From assembly GCA_030524745.1 (NCBI GenBank), contig JAUNGC010000009.1, positions 1 to 64,000 of the forward strand: a stretch of 64,000 bases of DNA. The letters are read 5' to 3'. How positions within the stretch are numbered: the first letter of the stretch is position 1; every line of letters starts with the position of its first letter. The position numbers were made by a program, and so were the translations under genes. This document shows, in pieces, positions 1,107 through 32,216 of this stretch. Below the pieces are notes generated by a model. The model ran no database searches. It saw only the letters and a program-made list of their open reading frames with translations, and had not been told where the DNA came from. Source of the DNA: Eubacteriales bacterium (GTDB lineage Bacteria; Bacillota; Clostridia; Lachnospirales; Lachnospiraceae).

Positions 1107-3224
1107 TTATCTCTTTCTCCTTCTGATCCAGATTACAATACCGGTCACAAGCATCCCTACGGGCAAAACCGCCATGAATAAAATGCCGTATCGGATCGCG
1201 GATGCGGAAGGCACCGTGAGATAGGATATGTCATAGGATTTTACAGGAACCGACACGCTCTCGGTTTCGCCCGTCATGGAACTGACCGCATTGGTGAACA
1301 GTCTTAAGTTGTTGTCCATTGTATACTGGTTTGTTCCGTCGGTAAACAGCATCGGAGAAGAATATAAAATAAGCTGTGCAGAGCCGGATTCCTGTTCTTT
1401 TACAGCGTGAATGCCAACTGCAAAAGGGCCGGCAGGATCATCCGCATTCTGTTCAATATCATCCGATTCGTTCAGACCCGATTTTGCATAAGAGTCTTCC
1501 GAGGTGGAAAGCAGCGTATTTACTTCCACATTTTCGTCTTCTTCCACAAAGATCGGCTGCGCATAGGGCATCATGACATAATCATAATCGCTTCCATAGA
1601 CTCCGCTGGTCAGCGTATCAGAAGAAACCTCGGGCAACAGATAAATGGGACTCTGATACATTCTTTCCCGGTTCTGCTCCACAATCAGTCCATCTCCGAC
1701 AGATACCCCGAAATAAGCGAGCACTTTGGACAGATTTGGCATATCCTCCGAAAACCGGTCAACGTAGGAAGTCGCAATGAAAAGACTGCCTCCCTGTTCC
1801 AGATAAGCGATCAGCTTATCCGCATCATCTTCTGTCAGATCGTTTTCCGGCGCAAAAAGAATCACGCCGTCGGCGTCCTCGGGCACAGCGTCCGAAGTCA
1901 AAAGGGTCAGATCCGCCAGATCCGCATTTTCCTTTTTCAGCCCGGCCACGAAAGTGCTGGAAATCGTTCCTTCATTGTGTCCGTTCAGTTCATAGATCAC
2001 AGGAGCGGAATCGCCTGCCACATAAGCGATCGCGCTGGTCAGAAGTCCTTCCGCATCATATCCTGTCACGCTGCTTTGATAGGTGGTATAATCAAAACTC
2101 GTCTCATAAATATCCGAATAGTCGATCGTTTTAAACCGCTTATCAGATTCCACAATCAGGGAATTGATCGTAATGCTGTCCGCATAGCTTTTATAAAATT
2201 CCGGAGAAATCACAGGATCCTTATTCACCACCTGCACATGATCCGACAAAGCGGCATAACTCGCAAGCGTTTTACACAGCGTAGGGTCCTGTCCGTCCTC
2301 CGATTCCAGAACATAAATGGTCACATCTTCCGTCAGATTTTTTACCAGATTTTTCGTTGTATCCGTCAGAGAATATAGCTTCTGACTCGTCACGTCCAGC
2401 GTTGTGTAACGCTCAGGCAGCGCAGACGCCGCCAGATTTACAAATACGGCGATCGCCACCACCAGCGCGGTCATTCCCGTACTGTATGCGCCAAACTGCA
2501 GCGTTTTTACTGAAATCTGATAACGGCGTTTCTGAATCGACTGTACGGTCAGAAACAAAAATACTGCGATCAGCGTCAGAAAGTATAAAACAGCCTTTAA
2601 ATCCAGCGTCCCGCCCAGCAGATCGCTGAGTCTGGTATAAAAATCAAAGGCGCTCAGAATCTTCTTTAAAACGGTCGCGGACGCCGGCAGCAGCGACATG
2701 ATGGAAGACATCATATAGCCCACAAAAAGAACGGCAAAACTCAAGACTGCCGCAATTACCTGACTTTCCGTAAGGGAGGAAATAAACAGGCCGACCGCAA
2801 GGCAGGTCAGACCGAACAGATAATAAACCAGTATCGCCGTATAGCTTTCACCAAGCTGCACCGTTCCATATCCGGTCAGAATCATCGGAAACAGCGCCAT
2901 GACCGCAACCGGTACGGTAAATACGGTCGCCATCGCCAGATATTTCCCCGCCACAATTTGGGAAACCGACACCGGCGCCGTCAAAATCAACTGATCCGTC
3001 TTCTGCTTTCTTTCCTCCGCCAGAATGCGCATGGAAAGGACCGGCGTAGAAAGCAACAGCAAAAATAGAATGCTGGACACAGTATCCGCCACATTTCCAT
3101 AGCCGGAAAGAAGATTGATTACAAAGAAATACAATCCTGCCAGACAGACGTGAGCCGCAATGAAAAGCCATCCTGTCACTGTGGTAAAATAGGTTTTTAA
3201 CTCTCTTTTATAAATTGCTGTCAT
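1107..3224 (-). CDS. GldF-GldG-like ABC transporter permease fusion
   Basis: This 705-residue protein joins two units usually encoded separately. Residues 1 to about 235 are an ABC-2 type permease with six hydrophobic segments. From about 245 there is another membrane segment, a large extracytoplasmic GldG-like domain (ABC_transp_aux), and a final membrane helix near 680 followed by a basic tail. The start is an ATG with a GGAGGAG site 7 bases upstream. It overlaps the upstream ATPase gene by 17 bases, indicating translational coupling. Family knowledge supports an ABC exporter. The gliding function known for Bacteroidetes relatives should not be assumed here, and the substrate is unknown. 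Confidence 0.8.
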   Translation of the reverse strand: MTAIYKRELKTYFTTVTGWLFIAAHVCLAGLYFFVINLLSGYGNVADTVSSILFLLLLSTPVLSMRILAEERKQKTDQLILTAPVSVSQIVAGKYLAMATVFTVPVAVMALFPMILTGYGTVQLGESYTAILVYYLFGLTCLAVGLFISSLTESQVIAAVLSFAVLFVGYMMSSIMSLLPASATVLKKILSAFDFYTRLSDLLGGTLDLKAVLYFLTLIAVFLFLTVQSIQKRRYQISVKTLQFGAYSTGMTALVVAIAVFVNLAASALPERYTTLDVTSQKLYSLTDTTKNLVKNLTEDVTIYVLESEDGQDPTLCKTLASYAALSDHVQVVNKDPVISPEFYKSYADSITINSLIVESDKRFKTIDYSDIYETSFDYTTYQSSVTGYDAEGLLTSAIAYVAGDSAPVIYELNGHNEGTISSTFVAGLKKENADLADLTLLTSDAVPEDADGVILFAPENDLTEDDADKLIAYLEQGGSLFIATSYVDRFSEDMPNLSKVLAYFGVSVGDGLIVEQNRERMYQSPIYLLPEVSSDTLTSGVYGSDYDYVMMPYAQPIFVEEDENVEVNTLLSTSEDSYAKSGLNESDDIEQNADDPAGPFAVGIHAVKEQESGSAQLILYSSPMLFTDGTNQYTMDNNLRLFTNAVSSMTGETESVSVPVKSYDISYLTVPSASAIRYGILFMAVLPVGMLVTGIVIWIRRRKR

Positions 3225-4278
3225 CGTTTTTCTCCTCCCCTTGTGGCTCCTCTTCCTGACAGGTTTCCGTCCGGCTGTCTCCGGTCTGATTGTCTTCGTC
3301 CAGATTCTCTCCGGTATGACTATCCTCTTCCAGCCGGCCGTCCCCGGTTTGTCCGCTCTCTGTCAACTGCAGGAAAATATCTTCCAGCGTACCCGCATTT
3401 TTCTGCAAAGAGAGAATCGGCATTTTATTTTCCGCCAGTTTGTAAAACAGGGACTGGCGCACGTCGCAGCCCGGCTTTTCCTGAATGACGGCGAAAACCT
3501 CTTCCTCTTCCTGCCGCACTTCAAAGCTTTCCACCCCTTCCAGCCGTTCCAGAATCGTCTCCATTCTTTCTTTCGTACCTTTGACGTTTACTTCCAGCCG
3601 TTCTGCTCCCTGCATTCTCTGCTGCAATCCTTCCGGCGTGTCGCTGGCCACCAGTTCTCCTTTGGAGATAATCAGAATCTGATCGCAGACTGCGCTCACC
3701 TCCGAAAGAATATGGGAACTTAAAATAACGGTATGCTTTTCTTTCAGGCTGCGGATCAGTTCCCGCATTTCTATCATCTGCTTCGGGTCCAATCCTACCG
3801 TCGGCTCATCCAGAATGATGATTTTGGGGTCTCCCAGTACAGCCTGCGCCAGGCCAACCCGCTGCCGGTAACCTTTGGATAAATTTCCGATCATTCGTTT
3901 TCTAACGTCTTCCAGCTTCGCAGTGTCAATCGCTTTTTCCACCGCTTCCGCCCGTTCTGCCCGCGGCACTTTTTTTAACTGAGCGGCAAATTTCAGATAT
4001 TCTTCCACTGTCATTTCCTGATACAAAGGCGGGATCTCCGGCAGATAACCGATTCTTTTTTTCGCCTCCTCCGCATCTTTTACGATATCAAAACCATCAA
4101 TTTTTACCTCGCCCGACGTCGGCGCAAGATATCCTGTGATGATATTCATGGTCGTGGATTTTCCCGCGCCGTTTGGTCCCAAAAATCCATAGATCCGGCC
4201 TTCCGAAATACAGACGTCAAGATCTTTCACCGCATAATGGTTCCCATACTTTTTGACCAGATGCGAAATTTCAATCAT
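3208..4278 (-). CDS. ABC transporter ATP-binding protein (GldA/CcmA-like)
   Basis: A cytoplasmic ATPase of 356 residues. It has Walker A 'GPNGAGKST' near residue 35, a 'LSKGYRQRVGLAQA' signature, Walker B 'IIILDEPTVGLDP' and the switch histidine in 'ILSSHIL'. The C-terminal ~60 residues are an acidic, hydrophilic Glu/Thr/Gly tail (several 'TGD' and 'EDSHTGE' units) that is not part of the ATPase fold. The start is an ATG behind GGGAGG. It is the first gene of a three-gene operon with the fused permease and the DUF4340 protein, and powers that exporter. Upstream lies the leuS terminator, so it has its own promoter, though I could not place one confidently. Confidence 0.85.
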   Translation of the reverse strand: MIEISHLVKKYGNHYAVKDLDVCISEGRIYGFLGPNGAGKSTTMNIITGYLAPTSGEVKIDGFDIVKDAEEAKKRIGYLPEIPPLYQEMTVEEYLKFAAQLKKVPRAERAEAVEKAIDTAKLEDVRKRMIGNLSKGYRQRVGLAQAVLGDPKIIILDEPTVGLDPKQMIEMRELIRSLKEKHTVILSSHILSEVSAVCDQILIISKGELVASDTPEGLQQRMQGAERLEVNVKGTKERMETILERLEGVESFEVRQEEEEVFAVIQEKPGCDVRQSLFYKLAENKMPILSLQKNAGTLEDIFLQLTESGQTGDGRLEEDSHTGENLDEDNQTGDSRTETCQEEEPQGEEKNDDSNL

Positions 4279-4455
4279 GTCGATTGCCTCCCTTATATGA
4301 TTATGCTATGTAAAACAGTTATCCGTATCCGCCTTCCGTTCCCATGGTACAAAGGCGGCTCCCGGACAACTTCCACATTTCACTATATGCAGAAAATGTG
4401 TTTAAAAAGAGAGGAATTTGTGACGATTGCCTGAAAAAAATATGTTCATTGTGTG

Positions 4456-4490
4456 AAAAAACGGCCGGTATACTTTCGCATACCAGCCGT
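4456..4490 (-). terminator. leuS rho-independent terminator
   Basis: On the minus strand a 13-base-pair stem (4478-4490 with 4461-4473, two G-T pairs) closes a GAAA tetraloop and is followed by six T residues. It lies 23 bases past the leuS stop codon. Confidence 0.88.
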
Positions 4491-4512
4491 CTTTACATGA
4501 ATTGCACATGAA

Positions 4513-21438: not shown

Positions 21439-21696
21439 TTATTTACTTAAAAATTCATCAACCTGCGCCTGCGCAGCTTCCACGATCCGGTCGAAGCCCG
21501 CCGCTCTCATTTTCTCCATCATAGCGGGAACTTCCGTAACAGGGTCCTTTGTTCCCGTCAGAATTTCGCTCTTATAACGGTTATAAATTTCCGTACAATT
21601 TGCAAGTTCATCTGCGACTTCAGAAGAGTCAAAGGTAAAGCCCAGTAAAACCGAAAGACTTGCATTTTCATTCAGTTCCTTCACTTCCTCCCATTT
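21439..21696 (-). pseudogene. 3' fragment of an ABC sugar-binding protein gene (DUF3502-type)
   Basis: The ~85 translated residues match the extreme C-terminus of LipO-like extracellular solute-binding proteins. They include 'LGFTFDSSEVADELANCT', then 'YKSEILTGTKDPV' and a closing amphipathic helix ending 'QVDEFLSK'. A whole protein would be about 500 residues with a lipoprotein signal. Homology appears to begin near 21696 ('WEEVKELNENA') and upstream the same frame turns into unrelated sequence. The only start available is a GTG at 21684. The fragment keeps its stop codon and terminator. It meets a ROK fragment head to head. Confidence 0.75.
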
Positions 21697-21969: not shown

Positions 21970-22017
21970 GGCGGAATCTGAATGATGTCCCATCACTCAT
22001 TCAGATTCCGCCTTTTT
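21970..22017 (+). terminator. Terminator after the ROK remnant and at the atp operon 3' end
   Basis: A perfect 16-base-pair stem (21970-21985 with 21997-22012) and five T residues on the plus strand. The right arm includes the last codons of atpC, so the hairpin may also define the 3' end of the atp transcript, though the minus strand lacks a T-tract. Confidence 0.85.
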
Positions 22018-22405
22018 CTTTCAGCCGCGCTATCGCCCGTGCCAGCGCCGCTTTGGACTGATGATATTCCTGAAGGCTCTGTTTTTGACGAAGCTGCTCC
22101 TGCGCTCTTTCTTTCGCCGCCAGCGCTCTTTTTTCGTCGATCTCCTCCGGCAGTTCGGCAAATTCCGTCAGGACGGTCATGCGGTTATTGATAAACTGCA
22201 TGACGCCCCTTCCGATCACCGCATGCGTCCAGCTTTCATCCTCCTTCTGTATCCGAATCTGTCCGACTTCCACCGCCGCCACAATGTCGCCGTGATTCGC
22301 CATAATGCCGATCTGTCCGTCCTGGGCCGGCAGAATTGCCATGACGCACTTTCCGTCATAAAACACTTTATCGCTGGCAAGTACCAGCAGATGAAAAGAT
22401 TTCAT
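22001..22405 (-). CDS. atpC: ATP synthase F1 epsilon subunit
   Basis: Part of the central stalk of F1, and able to inhibit rotation in the hydrolysis direction. The 134-residue product has the N-terminal beta-sandwich ('FHLLVLASDKVFYDG', 'LPAQDGQIGIMANHGD') and a C-terminal two-helix hairpin rich in Ala, Glu, Arg and Lys ('AKERAQEQLRQK'), both of normal size. It is the last gene of the atp operon, 14 bases after atpD. Its final codons form one arm of a strong hairpin. Confidence 0.95.
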   Translation of the reverse strand: MKSFHLLVLASDKVFYDGKCVMAILPAQDGQIGIMANHGDIVAAVEVGQIRIQKEDESWTHAVIGRGVMQFINNRMTVLTEFAELPEEIDEKRALAAKERAQEQLRQKQSLQEYHQSKAALARAIARLKEKGGI

Positions 22406-22419
22406 ATGCCTGCCGCCTC

Positions 22420-24716
<2,297 letters not shown>

Positions 24717-24743: not shown

Positions 24744-26777
24744 TTATTCCCGGGAACCTTTTCCCTGCCAGCTTTCGTAAAATTCCGACGCCGCGCGCGC
24801 AATCCGCTCCTGCGTCTCTTCGGTCAACCGCTTTGTCTCCGCAATCTCCCGCAAGATTTCAGGATATCTGTCCGCAAACCATGCAAGCAACGCGCCCTGA
24901 TATTCCTTGATGCGTCCGCACTCCACCGGCAGAAAATGTTTTTTTACCGCCAGCGTCAGGGTCACCACCTGCTCCGCCATGCTCATGGGATGTTCCAGCG
25001 GCTGCTTTAACAGTTCCATCAGCCCGCCGCCGTAAGCTAACTGCTCTTTGGTAGCTTCGTCCAGATCGGAGGAAAACTGTGTGAAAACCTGCATTTCCCG
25101 GTACTGCGCCAGATCGATACGAATGCTCCCGGCCGCCTTTTTCATCGCCTTCGTCTGAGCCGCGCCTCCCACACGGGACACGGACAGTCCGACGTTTACG
25201 GCAGGACGCATTCCGGCAAAGAACAGATCGCTTTCCAGAAAAATCTGCCCGTCGGTAATGGAAATCACATTCGTCGGAATATAAGCCGACACGTCGCCCG
25301 CCTGGGTTTCTATGATCGGCAGCGCCGTGATGGAGCCGCCGCCGTTTTCCTCATTCAGGCGGCAGGAACGCTCCAGAAGTCTGGAATGCAGATAAAAAAC
25401 GTCGCCCGGATAAGCCTCGCGGCCAGGAGAACGTTCCAGCAAAAGCGACAGCGCCCGATAGGCCACCGCATGCTTGGATAAATCATCGTAAACGATCAGC
25501 ACATCCTTCCCCTGATACATAAAATACTCCGCTATCGCGGTTCCCGCATAAGGCGCAATGTACTGCAATGACGCCGGTTCGCTGGCGGTCGCGCACAAAA
25601 CGCAGGTATAGGAAAGGGCATCGTTTTTTTTGAGCGTGTTGACCAGTTTGGCAACGGTGGATTCCTTCTGTCCGATCGCCACATAAATGCAGATCACGCC
25701 TTTTCCCTTCTGATTCAGAATGGTGTCAAGGGCAATGGAGGTCTTACCCGTCTGTCTGTCCCCGATGATTAATTCTCTCTGTCCGCGTCCTATGGGGAAC
25801 ATGGAATCGATGGCCAGAATACCGGTTTCAAGAGGCTCGCTGACCGACTTTCGCGCCACAATTCCCGGCGCTTTTTCCTCAATCGGCCGGTAGTCCGCCG
25901 CAATGATCTCGCCCATCCCGTCGATCGGCTCGCCCAGCGCATTCACCACTCTGCCCAGATATCCTTCGCCCACGCCGATTCCGGCCCTTTTTCCGGTGCG
26001 CATCACGCGGCTGCCTTCTTTTAATTCGCCCTCGCGTCCGAACAAAATACAGCCCACTTCGTCCCGCCTGATATCCTGCACCATGCCCTTCAGTCCCGTA
26101 TCGAACAAAAGAATTTCTCCATATTCCGCATGATCCACGCCGTCAATGTTGGCGATTCCGTCGCCCACATAATTGACAAAGCCCACTTCTCTGCCCGCCG
26201 CGCTCGCATCGAAGTCCTCAATTTCCTCTTTCAGAATCGAAATGATCTCTCCGGAACTGTCTGCCGCTTTCTTCGCAGCCGCTTTCAGGCGGTCATCTAA
26301 CTGACGCAGCTTCTCCTTCGTGCTCCAGTCATATTCCGTTGTTCCGACCTGCAGCTTAAAACCGCCGCCCAGCGATAAGTCCTGTTTTTGCACAAGACTG
26401 ATTTTCTCCGCATGACAGTTGTTCTGTATAAAAGTACGGATTCCCGCCAGTTGTTCTTCATCCGGAGGGGTGACATACGTCAGGACGGCCTCCAAAACAT
26501 CCGCCTTTTTCGGTTCCCGTCTGCGCAGGCAGTCCACGATCAGGTTCCATTTTTCCACGTCCTGATTGTCGCACAAAATCTTTAAAAAATCCCGGATTTC
26601 TCCCGGAAACACTTTTTCTATGATGGTATGCTTGCGGGAAAGGGAAACGGACGGATCCGCAAATGTCCCTGTAAGCTGCGGGACCGCTTCAAAGATATCG
26701 CCGCTTTGTTCTACGGCCTCTTTGGAAACGCCCATTCCCAAAAGCATTTCTGCATATTTTTCCGCTGTCTCTCTCAC
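24744..26777 (-). CDS. Fused ATP synthase delta-alpha subunit
   Basis: One uninterrupted 677-residue frame carries two subunits normally made separately. Residues 1 to ~166 are a delta/OSCP subunit: '[10 protein letters not shown]' helix bundle and the terminal beta domain '[25 protein letters not shown]'. From ~175 comes a complete alpha subunit: '[15 protein letters not shown]', '[11 protein letters not shown]', Walker A 'GDRQTGKT' (339-346) and the arginine-finger segment 'VSRVGGAAQ'. The linker is only about ten residues (AAAKKAADS). There is no in-frame Met between residue 15 and the alpha start, and the only GTG (Val129) has a poorly spaced GGAG. Alpha is normally present three times and delta once per F1, so the fusion raises a stoichiometry question. 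It lies in the correct operon place for atpH-atpA. Confidence 0.93.
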
Positions 26778-26793
26778 TTATTTCACCTGCTTT

Positions 26794-27309
26794 TCATACA
26801 TGATAGCCGTTTTTATTCCCTTCTTCGGGCGTCGAAACTTTCTTCAGAAACGCATCATAGGCAGCTTTATCAGACGCTTCTCCCTGCGCTTCCGTCACGA
26901 TTCTGGCAGCAGCCGCCACGGCAAGGCCGGCGATCTGGGCCTGCGCCTGCCGCAGCGTCTTTTCATATTCCTCCTGTCCCGCTTTTTTCGCTTCCGCAAC
27001 GATCTTTTGAGCCTTTGCATCCGCTTCCGACAGGATTTTGTCATATTCATTCCGCGCCTGGGCCTGCGCCTCTAGGATTTTCTCCTGTTGCAGCTTTTTC
27101 GCGTCCGCCAGACAGCCTTCATATTCCGTTTTTAACTGCTCCGCTTCTTTTTGGGCCGTATCCGCCTTGGAAAACTGCTGTTCAATCAACTGCCGGCGTT
27201 TTTCGATCACATTCAGCATCGGTTTATAGAGAAATATTTTCATCAGGAACAGCAAAACCAACAGGTTGAGCACAGTGAGAAGCAGATTCACAGGACTTAA
27301 ATTCAGCAC
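26794..27309 (-). CDS. atpF: ATP synthase Fo b subunit
   Basis: The peripheral-stalk subunit, 171 residues. It has one N-terminal membrane helix ('LLLTVLNLLVLLFLMKIFLY', residues ~9-28) and a long charged coiled coil rich in Ala, Glu, Lys and Gln. The C-terminal ~45 residues, normally the delta-binding part, are intact ('AQIAGLAVAAAARIV'). It is followed after 16 bases by the delta-alpha gene. A dimer of b would contact one delta domain; how it deals with up to three tethered delta domains is not answered by the sequence. Confidence 0.94.
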   Translation of the reverse strand: MLNLSPVNLLLTVLNLLVLLFLMKIFLYKPMLNVIEKRRQLIEQQFSKADTAQKEAEQLKTEYEGCLADAKKLQQEKILEAQAQARNEYDKILSEADAKAQKIVAEAKKAGQEEYEKTLRQAQAQIAGLAVAAAARIVTEAQGEASDKAAYDAFLKKVSTPEEGNKNGYHV

Positions 27310-27331: not shown

Positions 27332-27556
27332 TTATTTGAGCAAAATGATGACCAACAGAGCGATTACAAAACCGTAGATGGCCGTCGCCTCTGCCAGCGC
27401 GCACCCCAGCATCAGCGACTTTACAATTTTTCCTTCCGCTTCCGGCTGTCTTGCGATCGCCTCCACCGCTTTGGAAGTGGCGATACCGATGCCGATACCC
27501 GCTCCCACGCCTGTTAATACTGCGATTCCTGCTCCTATTGCGATTAATGTTGACAT
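27332..27556 (-). CDS. atpE: ATP synthase Fo c subunit (predicted H+ type)
   Basis: The rotor-ring proteolipid, 74 residues, two membrane helices joined by the 'ARQPEA' loop. The ion-carrying Glu is in 'LAEATAIYG'. Compared with the Na+-binding c subunit of Ilyobacter, the Gln of helix 1 is Ile (within '[10 protein letters not shown]') and the Ser after the Glu is Ala, so the Na+ ligands are missing and H+ coupling is predicted. I chose the ATG at 27556, 7 bases after AAAGGAG; a GTG at 27577 that overlaps atpB, or an ATG at 27562, are less likely. Confidence 0.95.
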
Positions 27557-27573
27557 ATCCATTCTCCTTTCTT

Positions 27574-28236
27574 TCACTCCACCGCCTCTTTGATGAACAA
27601 AGAGGTCAGAAATACAAATACATAAGCCTGAATCAGCCCGTCAAAAAGATCGAAGTACAGGCTGAAGGGAACCGGAACGACCGCCGGAACCACCTGCTTA
27701 ATCAGTTCCATGATGACAAAGGCTCCCAGCACATTTCCAAAAAGCCGCATGCACAGCGACAAAGGCCTGATCACCAGTTCCAGAATATTAAACGGCGTCA
27801 TGATTGCCACCGGCTGCGCAAAGCTTTTGAGCCATCCCTTCACGCCTTTTTCCCGGATGCCGGCAAATTCTATCAGCAGGATGCTCATGACCGCCAGCGC
27901 CACAGTGACCGTCAGATCCTTTGTTGGCGGTTTAAATCCGAACAGTCCGATAATATTTGCCACGCCGATGTACAAAAGAACCGTCATCAGATAAGGCACA
28001 TACCTGCCGCCCTTTTCGCCGACCATATCCTGCACCATGTTATGCAGGCCGCTCACGCCCGTTTCCAAAAGCAACTGTCCTTTTCCCGGATTTTCCACCT
28101 TCAGATTTTTGCTCACCAGAATGCTTATGAGCGTCAGCGCCAGCATAATGACCCATGTCACCGCCACGGATTCGGCAATTCCGATACTGCCGAAAACCGG
28201 AATGGTAAAAGCGGTTTCACAGTTGAGTTCCTCCAT
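27574..28236 (-). CDS. atpB: ATP synthase Fo a subunit
   Basis: The ion-channel stator subunit, 220 residues with about five to six membrane helices. The essential arginine is in '[15 protein letters not shown]', and the late helix '[16 protein letters not shown]' carries the conserved Gln and aromatic residues. The N-terminus begins directly with a membrane-proximal segment, as in other Firmicutes. It is the first gene of the operon; no atpI precedes it. Its promoter is shared in space with that of a divergent LysR gene. Confidence 0.95.
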
Positions 28237-28400: not shown

Positions 28401-29297
28401 ATGAATCCCATGAATATCAGCTATGACTCTTATAAGATTTTTTATCACGTAGCCCGTTATCAGAACATCACCCTGGCCGCAAAAGCGCTTTATCTCACCC
28501 AGCCCACCGTCAGCCACTATATTCTGGAACTGGAAAAGGAACTGGGCTGCAAGCTTTTCACCCGCTATAAAAAAGGCGTGCGCCTGACGCCGGAAGGTTC
28601 TATTCTCTATGGGCATATCGCAAAGGCCTGCGGGGAAATCGGCCGCGGAGAAGAAGATTTAAAAGCCTATCTGGAACTGGGACAAAGCGTCATAAAAATA
28701 GGAGCGTCAGAAACGACGCTCCGCAATTATCTGATGCCCATTTTGGGCCGTTATAAAATAAAACATCCCCAGACCAGATTCCAGATCCGCAACACGGTCG
28801 GAAAGCTGGTGGAAAGCCAACTGCAGGAAGGCTCCATCGATCTGGCGGTCATGGCGACTCCCTATCCCTATCACGACCTGTCCATAACAAAACTGGCAGA
28901 ATTTTCCATGTCCATCATCACCGGACCTGCCGCAAAAATTCCGGCAGACGTCCCCATGACCCTGGAAGAACTGGCCGCTTTTCCGTTGATCGCTCTCGAA
29001 CTGGGCACTTCCGGACGCTACTATATGGACACGCTGTTCGCTTCCTGCGGCATTCCGCTGCGCCCTGACATTGAATTGTCCACCGCAGACCTCATCACTC
29101 CCATAGCGATGCAAAATATCGGCATCGGTTTTGTGCCCCGCCGGTTTTGCCACAACGCACTGTCGGAAGGAAGGGTTGTGGAATTGACGCCCGCCCGGCC
29201 CCTTCCGCAGCGTTCCATCTGTCTGCTGACCGATCCCTCCCGGAACCCCTCCGGGGCCTGCCAACAATTCATGGAAGAACTGACCGCCAGCGGCTGA
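28401..29297 (+). CDS. LysR-family transcription regulator
   Basis: A 298-residue regulator with an N-terminal winged HTH (residues ~8-66: 'ARYQNITLAAKALYLTQPTV', 'LEKELGCKLFTRYKKGVRLT') and a two-lobe periplasmic-binding-like effector domain from ~92. The effector domain resembles those sensing small metabolites, but the ligand is unknown. The gene diverges from the ATP synthase operon with overlapping promoters, so control of that operon is a natural proposal. Start is the first ATG; an ATG three codons later is equally possible, and both have weak ribosome sites. Confidence 0.9.
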   Translation: MNPMNISYDSYKIFYHVARYQNITLAAKALYLTQPTVSHYILELEKELGCKLFTRYKKGVRLTPEGSILYGHIAKACGEIGRGEEDLKAYLELGQSVIKIGASETTLRNYLMPILGRYKIKHPQTRFQIRNTVGKLVESQLQEGSIDLAVMATPYPYHDLSITKLAEFSMSIITGPAAKIPADVPMTLEELAAFPLIALELGTSGRYYMDTLFASCGIPLRPDIELSTADLITPIAMQNIGIGFVPRRFCHNALSEGRVVELTPARPLPQRSICLLTDPSRNPSGACQQFMEELTASG

Positions 29298-29317: not shown

Positions 29318-30250
29318 TCAGATCTCCCAGCTTTCACCGATTTCCCGGATATCGTACGGCGTGGTCTGGTACACGTAATAATTGATCCAGTTGGTATAAA
29401 GGTTGTTGCAATGCGCCCGCCAGGACAACAGCGGCCTTTTCGTGGGATCGTCGTCGGGATAATAATTCTCCGGCACATGAATCGGCAGTCCCTTATTCAC
29501 ATCCCGCATATACTCGTTATGTAAGGTCAGACGGTCATATTCGGGATGCCCCATGACAAAAATCTGATGGCCGCCCTCTGTCATGCAAAGGAGCACGCCG
29601 GCCTTCTCCGATTCCGCCATAATCGTCAACTCGCTGCAGCTATGAATCGCTTCCGCAGGCGTGGCGGTATGCCGGCTGTGGGGAATGCAGAATACGTCGT
29701 CAAAGCCCCTGACCAGCGGCACCTTTCTGTTAAGCACCCGATGCTTGTAAACGCCGAAGAGTTTCTCGTCCAGCAGCACCTTATCCAGACCGAAATGATA
29801 ATAAAGCCCGGCCTGCGCGCCCCAGCAGATGTGAAAGGTGGAATGCACATGAGTTTTTGACCATTTCATGATCTCGCACAGTTCCGGCCAGTAGTCCACC
29901 TCTTCAAAAGGAATCTGCTCCACCGGCGCGCCCGTGATAATCAGACCGTCATATTTGTTTTCCTTCAATTCATCAAACGTATTATAAAATTTATTCAGAT
30001 GCGTGGCGGATGTGTTCAGTGATACGTGGCTGTTCATCTTCATGAAAGTCACGTCCACCTGCAGCGGCGTGTTGGAAAGGGAACGCAGAAGATGCAGTTC
30101 CGTATCCTGCTTCACCGGCATCAGATTCAAAATGCAGATCTGCAGGGGACGGATATTCTGATGCATCGCGCGATACTCGTCCATGACAAAAATATTTTCG
30201 TTATCCAGTATTTCTCTTACAGGCAGATCGCTCTGTATTTTAATCGGCAT
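29318..30250 (-). CDS. metA: Homoserine O-acetyltransferase (MetA family)
   Basis: Activates homoserine for methionine synthesis. With the ATG at 30250 (GGAGGGG upstream) the residue numbers match the characterised family: nucleophile Cys142 in 'HICWGAQAG', and the His-x-Glu pair in 'GHPEYDRL'. Residue 111 is Glu ('GAPVEQ'); in Bacillus cereus MetA a Glu here gives acetyl-CoA preference, whereas Escherichia coli has Gly and uses succinyl-CoA. I therefore infer acetylation despite the usual 'succinyltransferase' family label. The start lies inside the last codons of ligA (11-base overlap), so it is co-transcribed with ligA, the pseudouridine synthase and perhaps the MATE gene. Confidence 0.93.
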
Positions 30251-32216
30251 TGGAATCCCCTCCATTCATATACAATTCCAGAAACGCATCCTCCGTAATC
30301 ACTTCCACGCCCAGTTCTTTCGCTTTCTTATTTTTAGACGAATTGGAAGTGTTATCGTTGTTGATCAGGCAGGTCGTCTTCTTCGTCACGCTCCCCGTCA
30401 CCTTGCCGCCCAGCGATTCAATCCGCTCCTTTAACACGTTGCGGTTCTCAAAATGGTTCAGACTTCCGGTGATGACGAACACCTTCCCGGAAAGGGGCTG
30501 TTCGCCTTCCATGAAATCTTCCTTCGCAATCTCCACTTCTGCCAGCAGCGCTTCCAGGGCCGCCCGGTTTTTTTCCGTCTCCCAGAAATCGTGGAAAGCT
30601 GCCGCAATCACAGGACCTACTCCGTCGATGGCGCTCAGATCTTCCACAGGCGCTTTCAGCATTTTGGACAGGTCGTTTTTATATTCCCGGCAGATCATTT
30701 TCGCATTGGCGATGCCGATGTTGGGAATGCCCAGGCTGTAAATCAGCCGCGGCAGCGTGGTATGGCGCGCTTTTTCCAGACTGTCGGTCAGATTCTGATA
30801 GGATTTCTCCCCGAAGCCGTCCATTTCCACAATTTCTTCCCGGTGCCGGTCCAGGTGAAACAGATCGGCATAGGTATGCAGAAAGCCCTTTGCCAGAAAT
30901 TTTTCCAGGGTCGCTTCCGACAACCCGTCAATATTCATCGCATCCCGGCTCACAAACAGGGTGAAGGATTTGATTTTCTTCGCGTCGCAGTCGGGATTGG
31001 TGCAGATCAGCGTTTCCGTATCGTTTTCCTTCTGAAGCTTTGTGGGCGCGCCGCACACCGGACACTGCTCCGGTATGTCCAGACTGCCGCTCTGCGTCAG
31101 ATTCTGTGCGATCTGGGGAATAATCATATTCGCCTTATAGACGGTAATCCTGTCGCCGATTCCCAGCTTCAGTTCCCTGACGATGCTCACGTTATGAACG
31201 CTGGCGCGGCTGACCGTGGTGCCTTCCAGTTCCACAGGATCAAAAATCGCCACCGGATTGATCAGACCGGTGCGGCTGGCGCTCCATTCCATTTCCCGAA
31301 GCGTCGTTTCCGCCAGTTCATCCGCCCATTTAAACGCGATGGAATTGCGGGGAAACTTCGCCGTCATGCCCAGCGATTCGCCGTAAGCGATATCATCCAG
31401 AATCAGCACCAGTCCGTCCGAAGGCACCGGATAGTCCTTTACCCGCTCTTCAAATTCTCCAACGCTCTCCACCACATTCCGCGCCGTCACCGCTTTATAT
31501 TCCACCACTTCAAAGCCCTGTTCCTTCAAAAAGACAAACTGCTTTTCCCGGGAGTTCTCAAAATCTGCGCCTTCCGCTTTCACCAGCGCAAAAGCATAAA
31601 AACGGACGTTTCGTTCTGCCGTGATCTCATTGTTGAGTTGGCGCACGGAACCGGAACAGAGATTTCTGGGATTTTTATAGCGGGCGCTCACATCCTCTAT
31701 CTTTTCATTGATTTTCTCAAAGTCTGCATAAGTGATGACCGCCTCTCCGCGCAGAATCAGTTCCCCGTGAAAAGGAATCTGATACGGAAGATTGACAAAC
31801 GTGCGCGCATTGCCCGTAATGACCTCGCCCACTTCCCCGTTTCCCCGGGTAACCGCCTTAAAAAGCTTTCCCTCCCGGTAAGTCAGCACGATGGTCAGAC
31901 CGTCCAGTTTCCAGGACAAAAGCCCCTTTTGCGTTCCCAGCCACTCTGCCAGTTCTTCCCTGCTTTTGGTTTTTCCCAGGGAGAGCATGGGGCTTTCGTG
32001 CCGTTCTTTGGGCAGTTCCTCCACCGCCTCATAGCCCACCGACACGGTAGGGCTTCCCGCCAGCACAACGCCCGTCTTTTTCTCCAGTTCCACCAGTTCG
32101 TCATAGAGTTTATCATATTCAAAGTTGCTCATGATCTCCCGGTCCTCGGCGTAATACGCCTTCGACGCCTGATGCAAGAGCGCGGCCAGTTCTTTCATTC
32201 TCTGTGTTTCGTTCAT
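30240..32216 (-). CDS. ligA: NAD-dependent DNA ligase
   Basis: Seals nicks in DNA using NAD. The 658-residue product has the adenylation domain with Lys103 in the 'WKLDG' motif, 'RGEAVI', an OB fold, a four-Cys zinc finger ('CPVCG...[10 protein letters not shown]'), helix-hairpin-helix repeats ('FGEKSYQNL', '[15 protein letters not shown]') and a C-terminal BRCT domain ('[16 protein letters not shown]'). The segment around the active Lys ([11 protein letters not shown]) departs from the commonest LigA form (K-x-DG-A-x-S-L). It may be a diverged main ligase or a second copy; the rest of the genome would tell. It overlaps the pseudouridine synthase gene by 4 bases. Confidence 0.9.

Follow-up and report, generated by a model that had tools for sequence, protein, structure and literature searches.

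The 64,000-nucleotide stretch of Lachnospiraceae DNA analyzed here (the window) carries an F1Fo-ATP synthase operon in which a complete delta (OSCP) subunit and a complete alpha subunit are encoded by one open reading frame. This frame is a genuine fusion and not an assembly error and, judging from the genomes scanned, the delta-alpha fusion is conserved across Lachnospiraceae and beyond. The evidence as a whole leans, modestly, towards a reading in which the fusion is made intact, tethers C-terminal delta domains (deltaC) to F1 as docking sites for peripheral stalks, and preceded the loss of the N-terminal delta domain (deltaN) in relatives.

The fusion gene (24744..26777, minus strand) starts with a GTG at 26777, directly behind a stop codon and 16 bases after atpF, ends with its stop at 24744 and encodes 677 aa. 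As originally predicted, a full delta and a full alpha were found in this single frame: Pfam OSCP (PF00213) matches residues 5-164 (70.8 bits with a gathering threshold of 22.3; positions 2-172 of the 172 in the profile), and TIGR00962 (atpA) matches residues 175-668 (745 bits, cut-off 484), so that both an OSCP/delta and an F-type alpha are recognized over their whole length. The Pfam N, nucleotide-binding and C domains of alpha are matched within residues 197-666. With 588.8 bits for TIGR03324, below the cut-off of 750.5, the alpha part falls outside the alternate (N-type) F1F0 ATPases. Delimited by Pfam, an AF2 model and an N-domain profile, deltaN covers approximately residues 5-90 (26508..26765, minus strand). 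It is followed by deltaC at approximately residues 97-168 (26274..26489, minus strand), which contains a YDWS stretch common among relatives, and by the alpha domain, assigned with TIGR00962 to approximately residues 177-668 (24774..26249, minus strand), in which the Walker A region is G339-T346. The template-free AF2 model of the whole protein has a mean pLDDT of 79.5. Six helices are predicted for deltaN, with block pLDDT values of 84-93 through residue 80 and 73 at residues 81-90, and the nucleotide-binding domain of alpha is partly poor (below 50 at residues 503-546), so that little can be read from the model about the crown.

Relatives were collected by scanning genome contigs with the window protein, and at least 594 were confirmed. 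The best 80 of these, a choice biased towards near kin, comprised 28 full fusions (669-698 aa), 30 fusions without deltaN (578-639 aa, hereafter deltaN-less) and 22 loci with separate genes, which answers affirmatively the question, raised in the original prediction, of whether the join is conserved across Lachnospiraceae. Full fusions are held by Pseudobutyrivibrio xylanivorans (DSM 14809), Agathobacter ruminis, Oribacterium parvum and several Ruminococcus, and deltaN-less fusions by Butyrivibrio hungatei (DSM 14810), Shuttleworthella satelles and Absicoccus porci; Mediterraneibacter catenae, from the window's clade, has delta and alpha as separate genes. When 120 genomes of the family were sampled evenly, alpha was found in 107 and lay within an open frame of at least 575 aa in 26, with one further alpha, cut by a contig end (G074), counted as separate although it may be fused. 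Together, the window and 25 fetched family fusion loci include 9 full fusions, 16 deltaN-less fusions and one b-deltaC-alpha gene. In a phylum sample of 149 genomes, confirmed fusion frames of at least 575 aa were read in nine genomes other than that of the window, one of these nine being from the same family; a tenth frame of fused length (G325) was dropped after reading. The loci numbered L123-L182 were chosen for frames of at least 575 aa, as partners, or as outgroups.

This distribution also bears on the possibility that the join is an assembly or sequencing artefact, or that a second, conventional atp operon on contig C52 of the same assembly is contamination and the fusion the only enzyme. 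The window's genome (G000) is indeed incomplete, consisting of 63 contigs with 93.25% completeness and 4.98% contamination. However, the same join was read in many independent genomes, among them a complete one (L015), which excludes a sequencing slip, and with it the hidden stop that the original prediction had allowed for. As to contamination, 17 of the 26 family genomes with a fusion also have a separate-gene F-type enzyme, and most of these partner alphas fall together with the C52 alpha. We find an artefact of either sort scarcely credible.

The fusion is very likely present in the cell as one intact polypeptide. In the window, ATG, GTG and TTG are all absent in frame from -25 to +10 codons around alpha residue 1, in agreement with the predicted lack of an alternative start near the beginning of alpha. 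GTG129 is not the sole internal candidate that it had been taken for: after its first codon, the delta part has nine in-frame start codons, two of which (TTG95 and GTG129) show a 4-base Shine-Dalgarno match. Such codons would suit an explanation in which processing or an alternative start yields a separate alpha and one delta, the fusion being only a device for translational coupling. In the 35 full fusions, however, a start codon with a Shine-Dalgarno match is enriched in none of the 16-residue stretches of delta (3-8 loci of 35 in each, with the maximum at the gene start), start codons are absent from residues 85-103, around the start of deltaC, in 17 of the 35, and the delta part of one (L032) is wholly devoid of them. 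An internal translation start as a conserved device was rejected on these grounds. The linker (approximately residues 169-176; 26250..26273, minus strand) speaks against processing as well. The distance from the YDW-like motif to alpha residue 1 has a median of 25 residues and a 5th-95th percentile range of 21-30 (69 of 78 fusions, those showing the motif), while linker sequence, for which the original prediction had proposed a conservation check, is not conserved among fusions. A variable sequence of near-constant length points to a tether rather than to a conserved cleavage site. Moreover, 52 loci are deltaN-less, and a deltaC set free from alpha would need deltaN, without which it lacks its main anchor on F1. 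Production of a separate alpha is, for these reasons, improbable. F1 holds three alpha subunits and an intact fusion would therefore bring three delta per complex, a stoichiometry that had been predicted and that this reasoning supports.

The earlier statement that no delta-alpha fusion had been studied is outdated. Ueno et al. (2025; PMC12229609) describe a Bacillus PS3 FoF1 engineered by fusing deltaC to alpha (deltaDeltaN-alpha; PDB 9JC1), which carries up to three stalks and a-subunits, two on average, and has an H+/ATP ratio of 5.8; deltaN, according to these authors, restricts the number of stalks to one. In the Discussion of the same paper, Acidaminococcus fermentans is named as having a natural fusion without deltaN, and UniProt entries G4Q3K6 and A0A1I2C5T3 as showing similar features; the main text never mentions 'lachnospir' (PMC12229609). 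By that published description, A. fermentans and the window both have natural delta-alpha fusions, the former without and the latter with deltaN. The window protein resembles the engineered one in that deltaC is joined to the N-terminus of alpha and alpha is homologous throughout; by our count, the distance from the Tyr of delta to the Glu preceding the Ile of alpha is 29 residues in the window protein against 28 in 9JC1. In contrast, deltaN is kept in the window and was removed from the PS3 enzyme, and the window enzyme is natural and known from its sequence only. When the template-free model was compared with the PDB, the top three hits were the fused chains of 9JC1 (574-582 columns), the other 47 listed reaching at most 515, and 9JC1 aligns with the natural deltaN-less protein of locus L037 over 6-579. 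As the window has the fusion and linker features of the engineered design together with a deltaN, it was not filed as a member of that kind.

In mycobacteria, delta is fused to b, and NCBIfam holds a B/delta model (NF009961). There, as in the window, delta is covalently bound to a stator neighbour, but it sits on b, whereas the window's delta sits on alpha, which would give three per F1, and the window's b is a separate 171-aa frame, so that the window does not have a b-delta of the mycobacterial type. Natural full-length fusions, repeated loss of deltaN and a genome with a b-deltaC-alpha gene were not found in the open-licence papers, as judged from listings. Although the kind was first described in 2025, the full-length form and the evolutionary series thus appear to be new within the open-licence literature searched.

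We then considered how deltaN is distributed and constrained. In deltaN-less fusions the delta profile is matched only from about position 82-97 onward, and the deltaN profile exceeds 10 bits in none of the 54 fusions classed in this way. Across 137 distinct loci, deltaN is absent from 52 deltaN-less fusions and from the b-deltaC-alpha gene, and present in 45 of 46 free-standing deltas; the one exception (L177) is cut, since the contig begins 71 bases upstream and the frame stays open up to that point. Hence, among the loci read, absence of deltaN is confined to proteins in which deltaC is covalently joined to another subunit.

The deltaN-less forms occur in several branches. In a tree of alpha, beta and gamma, built after removal of five duplicate loci, the window's clade (101 rows) shows 8 changes of the deltaN-less label, of which starred branches force at least 6, when L143, the locus of the b-deltaC-alpha gene, is counted as deltaN-less and outgroup rows are left out. 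Fused versus separate changes 4 times over the same rows, and all such changes are counted without direction. The same tree as first labelled, with outgroups included and L143 still labelled 'full', gave 10 changes (7 forced). The alpha-only tree, also with outgroups, gave 16 (4 forced) with both L143 and L152 as 'full', before these were relabelled as b-deltaC-alpha and deltaN-less, respectively. The tree program warned that the long rows L143 and L145 had been joined, and joins of that sort are often false. Separate-gene members, one large group among them, nest within the fusion clade, which indicates that the fusion is not essential to this type of enzyme; some of these separate genes may be re-splits.

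If fusion had made deltaN useless, relaxed selection on this domain would be expected in full fusions. It was not found: the ratio of deltaN to alpha distances (medians over pairs that are not independent, with kinship ignored) was 4.6 in full fusions, 5.0 in separate relatives and 6.8 in enzymes of the C52 type. The corresponding deltaC to alpha ratio, subject to the same limits, was 3.2 in full fusions, 2.8 in deltaN-less fusions, 4.4 in the clade's separate relatives and 5.2 in C52-type enzymes. These values suggest that deltaN still matters in the window enzyme and, in full fusions, probably keeps its normal axial job; that it is not decaying counts against a simple three-stalk reading of the window enzyme. 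They also lend weight to an account in which the fusion is translated intact and the enzyme has a single stalk, one delta being axial and binding b2, the other two idle or displaced, and the fusion keeping delta from becoming limiting. Indeed, the domain that limits the stalks to one according to Ueno et al. (PMC12229609) is kept here under about the same constraint as in separate relatives, and the window operon has one b gene. This account leaves unexplained why deltaN was lost repeatedly while every alpha kept its deltaC, why deltaC is under tighter constraint in fusions, and why a b-deltaC-alpha gene, with one b per alpha, exists. We regard it as a real, if lesser, possibility.

The b-deltaC-alpha gene was found on contig C33 of a family genome that is 96% complete (G054). 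At L143:1956-4292 (equivalent to L212:3156-5492), a 778-aa frame comprises b (residues 1-165), deltaC (182-251) and alpha, within an operon ordered a, c, b-deltaC-alpha, gamma, beta and an epsilon-like frame. The N-domain profile is silent on this protein, although the Pfam OSCP match extends back to profile position 54. Separate F-type b, delta and alpha genes were all not found in the G054 genome, where PF00430 gives two other matches, both weak (E 0.004 and 0.009) and both on C23, which also carries a V/A-type A gene. A stop-free frame of this kind occurs in G054 only, among the matches listed in 397 family genomes, and a frameshift error in the assembly is a possible cause; a TTG close to the deltaC part has a ribosome site that is weak at most. 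Given three alpha per F1, the G054 enzyme would, if translated whole, be forced to have three membrane-anchored b per F1, and this gene is the strongest hint of several stalks.

Fusions of b to deltaC were also read elsewhere. In G052 (L148:2005-2688), a 227-aa b-deltaC fusion recognized by Pfam lacks a deltaN match and alpha is separate; downstream, gamma and a beta-like start share one open frame from 4217 to the end of the locus. In G346 (L162, minus strand), a 267-aa b-deltaC protein (b at 3-159, weak deltaC at 178-247 with E 4e-5), also without a deltaN match, lies alongside a divergent alpha. No delta match was found at locus L161, which has a separate alpha. In G057 (L123:1484-2443 and 2449-4194), a 319-aa b-like protein terminates in a tandem pair of repeats similar to the deltaC of the neighbouring alpha (repeat 1 versus repeat 2, E 8e-14; repeat 1 versus the alpha-borne deltaC, E 4e-7). 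The deltaC profile barely matches these repeats, and there are possibly three deltaC-like units in all.

The window operon runs a, c, b, delta-alpha, gamma, beta, epsilon on the minus strand, with single a and b genes: atpB (27574..28236; PF00119), atpE (27332..27577), atpF (26794..27309; 171 aa, PF00430), the fusion gene, atpG (23811..24716; PF00231), atpD (22420..23814; TIGR01039) and atpC (22001..22405; PF02823 and PF00401). Each gene has its Pfam domains and is free of stops. The claim that the other subunits are present once each therefore holds within the operon but not genome-wide. A second complete atp operon (a, c, b, delta, alpha, gamma, beta, epsilon) with the same subunit types lies on contig C52, and its delta and alpha are separate genes of 183 and 500 aa. 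With this complete F1Fo in the genome, the view that the fusion enzyme is the cell's working complex was not sustained. The second atpH and atpA, a finding that the original prediction would have held against the fusion, do not refute it, because 9 of the 26 family genomes with a fusion yielded no F-type alpha other than the fused one. The complete conventional enzyme on C52 would also fit an explanation in which the window operon is a decaying or silent paralogue and C52 does all the work. Against this stand the intact, stop-free set of expected subunit domains, the nine genomes just mentioned, and the invariance of 163 of the 492 alpha positions, Walker A residues included, across the window and 58 other fusions. 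We consider a silent paralogue very improbable.

Several observations concern the surroundings of this operon and its counterparts. A LysR-type regulator (28401-29297, plus strand) is directed away from the atp operon; it was rejected as a conserved atp regulator, having a homologue in the fetched stretches of just 4 of the 80 related loci. An 81-aa frame (21439-21684, minus strand) has DUF3502, which normally forms the end of a larger protein, as its sole match and is a possible remnant of a solute-binding protein gene. At 30240-30265 (minus strand), the end of a DNA ligase gene and the start of a homoserine O-succinyltransferase gene, taken from its first start codon, share 26 bases. In the Ruminococcus full-fusion operons L069, L073 and L075, two tandem c genes, identical or near-identical, lie near 4000-4500. 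A subgroup of deltaN-less relatives (L072, L078, L079, L081-L084, L087, L089, L091 and L092) has a-subunits of approximately 280-300 aa and c-subunits of 119-167 aa. In the latter, a duplicated hairpin was rejected by eye in favour of a single hairpin preceded by an N-terminal extension.

The two enzymes of the window's genome appear to differ in their coupling ion. The Na+ ligand set of the c-subunit is given as Gln/Glu32, Glu65 and Ser/Thr66, plus a stabilizing Tyr70 (PMC2359735). In an alignment made by eye, the ion site reads GIGIG and AEATAIY in the window and GVGQG and AETTGLY on C52. At positions 32 and 66 (the latter within EAT), the window c thus shows Ile and Ala in place of these ligands, whereas C52 has the Na+ set. 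Set against the published ligands, these residues make the window enzyme look H+-type and the C52 enzyme Na+-type. The same genome contains rnfC. An Ech hydrogenase was rejected as a partner, with zero PF00346 matches, as was a V/A-type ATPase, TIGR01043 having no match at 1e-60; the fifth PF00006 match is a 521-aa frame on C32 whose start we take, by eye, to resemble transcription factor Rho.

A second rotary ATPase accompanies the fusion throughout the family sample. All 26 fusion-bearing genomes have one, a separate-gene F-type in 17 and a V/A-type in 9, and none of the 17 is among the 64 family genomes that have a V/A-type A subunit. A single rotary ATPase was found in 0 of 26 fusion-bearing genomes versus 32 of 81 with separate alpha only (Fisher p 3e-5, with kinship ignored and counts tallied by hand). 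Of the nine other fusion genomes in the phylum sample, eight have a V/A-type enzyme and the ninth a separate F-type. The C52 alpha clusters in the tree with most of the separate F-type partners, and the Na+ ligand places of the c-subunit hold Gln and Thr in 15 and Glu and Thr in 1 of the 16 partners read out of 17 (L177 left out). Where a second F-type alpha is lacking (9 genomes of the family and 5 of the phylum sample), each of the 14 V/A-type K subunits read shows L/I-P-G-T-Q-G-x-Y (Ile first in 3), although they were selected by a motif fixing P and T with Q free, and the comparison covers the K subunits of these fusion genomes only. This stretch is the place of three Enterococcus Na+ ligands and the stabilizing Tyr (PMC2359735). 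For the fusion-bearing genomes of the window's clade, to which 25 of the 26 belong, the regular picture in what was read thus seems to be a fusion enzyme of proton-like type accompanied by a rotary ATPase of sodium-like type. Outside the clade, the fusion c-subunit is not always proton-like, with Gln at that site in L123, L149 and L150.

The reading we favour brings these results together as follows. One intact delta-alpha subunit would belong to an H+-type F1Fo that the cell has in addition to a rotary ATPase of the Na+ type, and three deltaC, one per alpha, would be tethered to the crown, each a potential docking site for a b dimer. Fusion would render deltaN dispensable, and many relatives would subsequently have lost it, thereby arriving at the design with which the engineered enzyme attains as many as three stalks and an increased H+/ATP. 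The window enzyme, with its deltaN, may be an intermediate that has at least one stalk and can probably hold more, and more than one stalk would be expected at the least in deltaN-less forms. A higher number of a-subunits would raise H+/ATP and permit ATP synthesis at low proton-motive force beside the sodium circuit; alternatively, many protons could be pumped per ATP at low gradient. That the enzyme of the window itself has several stalks is a tentative proposal, somewhat short of an even call; its deltaN is kept and, in the account of Ueno et al. (PMC12229609), this domain limits the enzyme to one. That some member of this group of gut and rumen bacteria has a multi-stalk F1Fo seems, by comparison, reasonably likely.

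The textbook F1Fo has one stator stalk and one ion channel, and its ion/ATP ratio is fixed by the size of the c-ring. Ueno et al. demonstrated with their engineered enzyme that the number of stalks can set this ratio too, and suggested that nature may do so (PMC12229609). The natural fusions hint at rotary motors with more than one stalk, which so far have only been built in the laboratory. Within the window's clade, each step (full, deltaN-less and separate) is represented by a named species, and there is a b-deltaC-alpha gene as well, which makes the question of stalk number directly testable. For rumen butyrivibrios, an estimate of ATP yield names the F0F1 stoichiometry as uncertain (PMC4478896), and the number of stalks would bear on the ATP yields of these bacteria.
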